IMG/VR virus record: IMGVR_UViG_3300025913_000036
Location: 1 to 64,000 of that record
Reading direction: 5' to 3' (one strand)
From: a virus
Length of the DNA stretch: 64,000 nucleotides
Within the stretch, counting starts at the first letter, position 1. Each line of letters begins with the position of its first letter. A program made the position numbers and the translations under genes. Of this stretch, positions 51,740 to 51,904 are shown piece after piece. The notes beneath the pieces are model-generated. The model was not told the DNA's origin and ran no database searches. It saw only the letters and a list, made by a program, of their open reading frames with translations.

Positions 51740-51791
51740 TTCCACCGATTTTCGGTGTGAACGAAGTGCTCTACCACTGAGCCAACCGCCC
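51740..51791 (-). other. attP candidate: 5' part of a tRNA-Val(CAC) gene
   Basis: On the minus strand GGGCGGTTGGCTCAGTGGTA begins a perfect tRNA 5' half: 7-nt acceptor strand, D-arm GCTC/GAGC, and an anticodon arm CTTCG-TTCACAC-CGAA with anticodon CAC. Similarity continues through ATCGGTGG, then no T-arm follows. It is therefore a fragment, not a gene. With the integrase nearby it is best read as the att core overlapping the anticodon region. Confidence 0.7.
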
Positions 51792-51840
51792 AAACGACGC
51801 CGATACCATTGCTCCTGAACTCAAGCCGGGTGATGGAAAG

Positions 51841-51869
51841 AGTATAATACAAAACTCCTGCCGGTACAA
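51841..51869 (-). promoter_or_regulatory. phage-borne promoter reading into the tRNA fragment
   Basis: On the minus strand a -35 TTGTAC (51864-51869) and a -10 TATACT (51841-51846) are exactly 17 bp apart; initiation would fall about 43 nt before the tRNA 5' end. GTAGACACTT (51870-51879) abuts the -35. Confidence 0.6.
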
Positions 51870-51904
51870 GTAGACACTTATACCATGGAGAAAGGATGTG
51901 GTTA

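Follow-up and report, generated by a model that had tools for sequence, protein, structure and literature searches.

We characterized the attachment site of a temperate phage and put the probability at nearly nine in ten that this phage, an Armatimonadota phage, integrates within the anticodon arm of its host's tRNA-Val(CAC) gene, the 5′ half of which it replaces. The virus record comprises 64,152 bases, and the window, that is, the whole stretch of DNA that was analysed (64,000 nucleotides), covers everything but the final 152. As the sequence-only reading had claimed, with coordinates correct to within a few bases, the window carries at attP a tRNA-Val(CAC) 5′ half that extends past the anticodon. 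It consists of the first 41 nt of the gene (GGGCGGTTGGCTCAGTGGTAGAGCACTTCGTTCACACCGAA, 51791-51751, minus strand), is identical at 41 of 41 positions to 11 Armatimonadota tRNA-Val(CAC) genes, and stops within the 3′ strand of the anticodon stem; in every one of these host genes, identity to the phage ends after CGAA. Judged from this match, 51791-51751 is the tRNA part of the phage attP. The probable crossover core is the anticodon stem-loop CTTCGTTCACACCGAA (51751..51766, minus strand), which had a single match in the window at up to three mismatches, and all of it except the last base is common to the attL and attR of an element in genome G145 that is described below. A second copy of GGTGTGAAC, which is part of the core, was observed at 51701-51709, 53 bp from the attP copy, and is perhaps an accessory integrase site.

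The attP (51751-51791) lies outside the integrase gene, with the tRNA half 338 nt upstream of int and on the same strand. This gene (50441..51412, minus strand) encodes a tyrosine integrase of 323 aa, assigned by a Phage_integrase match (4e-21) with a SAM-like N-terminus, by phrog_1, and by the tree. Between attP and int, a small divergent ORF of 69 aa (51438..51647, plus strand) has a ribosome-binding site according to a script, and no family match was found for it in the PHROG/Pfam-type searches of the window proteins. A second divergent ORF of 71 aa (51896..52111, plus strand) lies upstream of the tRNA half and shares its intergenic region with the promoter and box described below; TATAAT occurs in this region on the plus strand at 51843. 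The structural genes occupy positions from 53873 upward and share the strand of the tRNA half; ORFs on the opposite strand fill the intervening 2 kb or so (51896-53495 and beyond).

A comparison with host tRNA-Val(CAC) genes, which the sequence-only reading had proposed, yielded the 41-nt identity in 11 Armatimonadota species. The exact 41-mer was present in 11 stretches of genome_contigs (one genome per species, 84,980 species), and ARAGORN called a complete tRNA-Val(CAC) gene in every one. All 11 matching genomes fall within one phylum, Armatimonadota, of which 291 genomes were searched. The titles of eight matches name Armatimonadetes, Chthonomonadaceae, Chthonomonas or Fimbriimonas, and the other three say just "bacterium." Because the 41-nt identity is limited to one phylum, the host is likely to belong to the Armatimonadota. 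Five of the 11 matching genomes belong to the 31-genome class of G001, and the host is probably of or near this class, which we take from the host names to be Chthonomonadia. A shorter, 21-nt core pattern at no more than one mismatch matched 115 of the 291 phylum genomes, 108 of them once. The best match of the portal protein within the phylum (31% identity, E 1e-51) was in G042, which belongs to the G001 class, and four phage proteins (the portal and three others) have relatives on one 20-kb stretch of that genome. Among 50,697 phage records, the best portal match scored 64 bits, a figure obtained with a different program, so that only the broad contrast with the phylum search is meaningful. 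We found no relatives of the integrase, terminase, and capsid protein in viral_contigs and no DNA-level relatives of the phage among phage sequences; the 41 nt give a host phylum to a phage without relatives in the searched viral collections. A CRISPR-spacer link was also considered, comparing one 20-kb piece of four with the 31 genomes of the class; the best match (94% over 33 nt, E 3e-4, L080) had no repeat array around it and was dropped.

The same layout, with a host promoter, a 5′ half, and int downstream, is found at the attL of a 5′-swapping element (L210 in G041), and the stretch could accordingly be read as the host junction of a prophage contig, with the promoter and the 5′ half belonging to the host. 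This reading is highly improbable. The termini of the record overlap over 126 of 132 nt, with the mismatches confined to the first seven bases, and the genome is therefore read as circular, about 64.02 kb long, closing on itself with the attP site in its interior. In addition, the upstream proteins 57636-59945 and 59945-63976, like the portal, have relatives on the one G042 stretch, and therefore both sides of the 5′ half are phage DNA.

The sequence-only reading had stated that most integrases use tRNA 3′ ends, which agrees with the Islander survey, where 3760 of 3919 islands have a 3′ fragment and 159 have a 5′ fragment in the counts it gives (PMC4383910). An ordinary attP of that kind, in which the 3′ half comes from the phage and the resemblance on the 5′ side is a coincidence, has to be weighed here as well, given that 3′-restoring elements are common at tRNA-Val(CAC) in the phylum. 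Elements of this type, with int downstream of an intact tRNA-Val(CAC), were found in G094, G113, G139, G077, and G235, with remnants in G157, and in G032 a displaced 3′ half marks the insertion of a 105-kb element; some 3′-type elements also retain a stretch resembling the 5′ half at their far end. However, the phage diverges from the hosts past nt 41, and the T-arm pattern of a tRNA 3′ half had no match in the 64-kb window. In six 3′-type elements or remnants, 1-18 of the 41 nt differ between the intact copy and the far-end 5′ copy, and in five of the six the differences fall within the acceptor stem, whereas the phage half matches its hosts at 41 of 41. A 3′-restoring role of the phage attP is already contradicted by these data and has next to no probability.

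In the islands of G094, G113, and G139 (L055, L056, and L061/L062), tRNA-Val(CAC) is followed by int after 27 to 92 nt, and the tRNA copy at the far end keeps the 5′-half-like stretch together with shared upstream sequence, giving a near-complete tRNA at both ends. A DNA methylase and a ResIII protein are among the cargo of the L055 island.

An element at tRNA-Val(CAC) in G145 presents another mode. It is bounded at each junction by an orphan half, and the two halves have 16 bp (ACTTCGTTCACACCGA) in common. The distance from int to the orphan 5′ half is 125 nt, and an entire tRNA-Val(CAC) gene occurs 2.2 kb away. This element (L158, L197, and L200; C8 and C3), whose junctions lie on two contigs, fits tRNA-dependent lysogeny and is a candidate for this mode outside the Actinobacteria. 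Its orphan 5′ half had been considered as the mark of a 5′-type lysogen, which was rejected once the orphan 3′ half and the carried tRNA were found. If the phage did likewise, it would destroy the host tRNA gene and complement it with a tRNA gene of its own. We consider this scarcely credible for the phage. Neither ARAGORN nor Rfam found a tRNA gene in the window, from which just the final 152 bases of the record are missing, and the stretch shared with the hosts is not the short core expected for tRNA-dependent lysogeny; it runs 41 nt from the first nucleotide of the tRNA. As the phage has neither a 3′ half nor a tRNA gene of its own, a lysogen would therefore keep the tRNA only through replacement of the 5′ half.

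A census of tRNA-Val(CAC), in which repeated sites and one viral contig were counted, returned 122 rows, 120 of them complete genes and two of them orphans (G098 and G145). The duplicate 5′ half in G098 (L058, C30) was examined as a 5′-type remnant and rejected. It is diverged, lies 743 bp upstream of the intact gene, and resembles the intact copy over at least 260 nt upstream, the full length compared, and about 58 nt into the tRNA, reaching the T-loop; it looks more like an old duplication. A search of viral_contigs with a degenerate 5′-half pattern yielded a single, unrelated contig that carries a complete tRNA array, and for the displaced tRNA-Gln 5′ half in G227 only the known copy was found.

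We infer that the phage integrates by replacement of the 5′ half. Int would recombine attP with attB at the anticodon stem-loop. The resulting attR would consist of phage upstream DNA, the phage 5′ half, and the host 3′ half, forming an intact tRNA gene whose transcription would have to begin in phage DNA, most likely at TTGTAC/TATACT. In the attL, int would come to lie behind the host promoter and the host 5′ half that had been displaced; it would thereby fall under the host tRNA promoter, and the tRNA and int would swap promoters. When these junctions were assembled in silico, ARAGORN called a tRNA-Val(CAC) in 11 of 11 attR constructs (phage upstream sequence, 5′ half, and host 3′ half) and a tRNA in 0 of 11 attL constructs (host 5′ half and the int side of the phage). 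The earlier expectation of a tRNA made of a phage 5′ part and a host 3′ part is supported by these constructs, and the corresponding swap was seen in two sibling elements. A lysogen of this phage with attL and attR, also sought on the proposal of the sequence-only reading, was not found among the 291 phylum genomes, where no relative of the integrase exceeds 31% identity.

Two elements with related integrases, in G041 and G040, show the 5′-half swap against empty sites, and it is in these siblings only that replacement of the 5′ half together with an element-borne upstream region is demonstrated. Both genomes belong to the class that holds five of the 11 matching genomes, and each element is split over two contigs. 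In G041, similarity between the int-side contig (L092) and the empty sites of G039 and G040 extends to position 7061, a single base beyond the end of the tRNA 5′ half, and the partner contig matches the same empty sites from 2 nt before tRNA nt 1 onward, its upstream DNA being foreign. The displaced host 5′ half is located at the int end of the element, as it is in G040. The G041 element carries a promoter, TTGACG-18-TAAAAT (10/12), 61 nt before tRNA-Val(CAC). Its int-side contig encodes DpdA, D, F, H, and J, and the other contig encodes folE2 and a radical-SAM gene; the island loci (L218/L221, C119 1-21000 and C66 90640-106282) also include a Rad52-like cargo gene. We read the two contigs as one dpd 7-deazapurine DNA-modification island at tRNA-Val(CAC), a joining of our own since the contigs do not meet. 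In the leader that separates the tRNA from the element promoter (L207), an inverted repeat, GCTCACAC / GTGTGAGC, resembles the core.

The G040 element at tRNA-Asp (L093) shows the same swap pattern against the empty site of G041, and its promoter, TTGACA-18-TATCTT (10/12), lies 55 nt before the tRNA. The restored tRNA-Asp(GTC) is followed by a second integrase and about 9.9 kb, and then by a displaced 3′ half (L215 and L217; C39 and C49). This tRNA gene appears to have received its 5′ side from one element and its 3′ side from a second, tandem element of the 3′ type.

We examined 39 loci that contain relatives of the phage integrase. At six of them, int is immediately preceded by a complete tRNA on its own strand, two have an orphan 5′ half (L092 and L093), one has a tRNA on the other strand, and 30 have neither arrangement recognised. 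In a 42-row tree, the phage integrase groups with nine Armatimonadota integrases (support 100/99), five beside a full tRNA (of these, only G032 was checked for a displaced 3′ half), two beside an orphan 5′ half, and two unclassified. The phage branch is long, at 2 changes per column, and its placement is therefore less sure than the support implies. The three 5′-type rows are not clustered in the tree. As the modes are mixed within the clade, replacement of the 5′ half probably arose more than once or switches easily.

The sequence-only reading had also placed a promoter at the right distance from the tRNA half. The hexamers are present: a candidate weak −35, TTGTAC (3/6; 51869-51864, minus strand), is spaced 17 nt from a candidate −10, TATACT (51846-51841, minus strand), which ends 49 nt before tRNA nt 1. 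The pair matches the consensus at 8 of 12 positions and is the best in the 104 nt upstream. However, this score was reached by 27% of 2000 dinucleotide shuffles and by 14% of 3000 random window positions, so TTGTAC/TATACT is a weak candidate promoter whose consensus match is not above chance. Its candidacy is helped mainly by the need for a promoter and by those of the sibling elements. Upstream of the 11 matching host tRNA genes, five promoters score 10-11 and six score 5-8; the −10 of the five high-scoring ones ends 24, 24, 25, 25, and 48 nt before the tRNA. With the phage promoter match weak and the structural genes from 53873 upward on the same strand, the 5′ half could be as described and the tRNA nevertheless be transcribed by read-through from the phage late genes rather than from a nearby promoter. 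We regard such read-through as unlikely, because about 2 kb of opposite-strand ORFs lie between the late genes and the tRNA half, the late genes should be silent in a lysogen, and both siblings carry 10/12 promoters close to the tRNA, at 55 and 61 nt.

The box GTAGACACTT reported to abut the −35 is present as described, at 51870-51879. After its two exact copies had been seen, it was extended to an operator-like 15-mer, TACAARTAGACACTT (51865..51879, plus strand), which overlaps the −35 and has its only other exact copy at 43796-43810. The latter is part of a pair of direct box copies, GTAGACACTT and ATAGACACTT, 20 bp apart (43781..43810, starts 43781 and 43801, plus strand), between an HTH gene and the next, divergent gene. 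In the window, GTAGACACTT had seven matches at no more than one mismatch against 1.4 expected, and none of 100 shuffles reached seven; three of the seven matches are intergenic by rough gene calls. The shorter TAGACACTT was less striking, with 11 matches at no more than one mismatch against 5.6 expected and an equally high count in 4 of 100 shuffles. A box copy at 1340-1365 (minus strand), immediately downstream of the gene at 1373-2296, takes the form of an inverted repeat, GACACT-N10-AGTGTC.

The HTH gene near the paired copies (43065..43646, minus strand) encodes a CI-like protein (HTH_3, 3e-13) and is a candidate repressor. In a Pfam scan of 39 window proteins, it alone matched HTH_3; the other HTH matches were a 58-aa ORF at 36026-36202 (HTH_23) and a ParB-like protein (HTH_ParB). 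Its HTH_3 lies in the second half of the protein, with a possible second HTH near the N-terminus, and the gene faces the two box copies. That a phage repressor may control the host tRNA through the box, as the sequence-only reading had suggested, is a live idea and a lead only, and the putative operator could instead serve the divergent gene. A tentative extension, to which we give modest odds, is that the CI-like protein binds the putative TACAARTAGACACTT box on the poor −35 and places the host tRNA gene under the phage lysogeny switch, and that int meanwhile comes under the host tRNA promoter; such a mutual exchange of promoters would tie host GUG decoding to the prophage state. Lambda CI activates at PRM. 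Because the −35 is weak and the box lies on and just upstream of it, the analogy with this arrangement suggests activation, with production of tRNA-Val(CAC) in the lysogen and its shutdown on induction as the expected outcome; plain repression by the CI-like protein is the alternative.

If the replacement promoter obeys the phage switch, the prophage would control part of host translation. Independently of this, one tRNA gene in one phylum is associated with three modes of survival, namely 3′ restoration, 5′ replacement, and probably whole-tRNA complementation, which can be compared with the site held constant. The 5′-replacement mode is already in print as rare and is not claimed here as new. 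As far as the literature was searched, novelty lies in the phage, its host phylum, the resolution of two sibling elements, and the side-by-side view of modes at one tRNA; a search on prophages of the Armatimonadota, a little-studied phylum, returned few papers.

Among known systems, the G041 dpd island is like the phage in tRNA gene, probable crossover arm, int side, and a related integrase (about 30%), as well as in an element-borne promoter, which in the phage is a candidate, and differs in being a DNA-modification island with both junctions seen against empty sites. The 5′-fragment islands of Islander share with the phage a tyrosine integrase and, with its proposed integration, an element that restores the 5′ part and a displaced host 5′ fragment, and a crossover in the anticodon arm, as is probable for the phage, is one of the two classes that the survey describes; as presented there, they form a database class without promoter or regulation analysis, whereas here the element is a phage to which a likely host phylum can be assigned and whose replacement promoter carries a candidate operator (PMC4383910). 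Archaeal pTN3-like elements use the tRNA 5′ half, the tRNA being expressed from the integrase promoter, in a mode described there as "seldomly" seen in bacteria (PMC8371274, PMC5495485). For pTN3/TKV4, these reports describe an attB in the tRNA 5′ half, 41 bp of shared sequence, and a restored tRNA parted from its own promoter, as proposed for the phage; however, the pTN3 attP is inside the integrase gene, which is split on integration, whereas the phage attP lies 338 nt outside int and would leave it whole (PMC8371274, PMC5495485). In ICEKp1, int is reported to be read from the host tRNA promoter when the element is integrated and from an end-borne promoter when it is circular, and the phage geometry fits this, with int downstream on the same strand; the ICEKp1 tRNA keeps its own promoter, whereas in the phage the end-borne promoter would take over the tRNA (PMC13023037). 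Finally, the tRNA-dependent lysogeny described for mycobacteriophages shares with the proposed integration an insertion into a host tRNA gene that needs compensation by the phage, but those phages are described with a whole tRNA and a core of about 10 bp, whereas here half a gene would be restored at the junction (PMC10865867).
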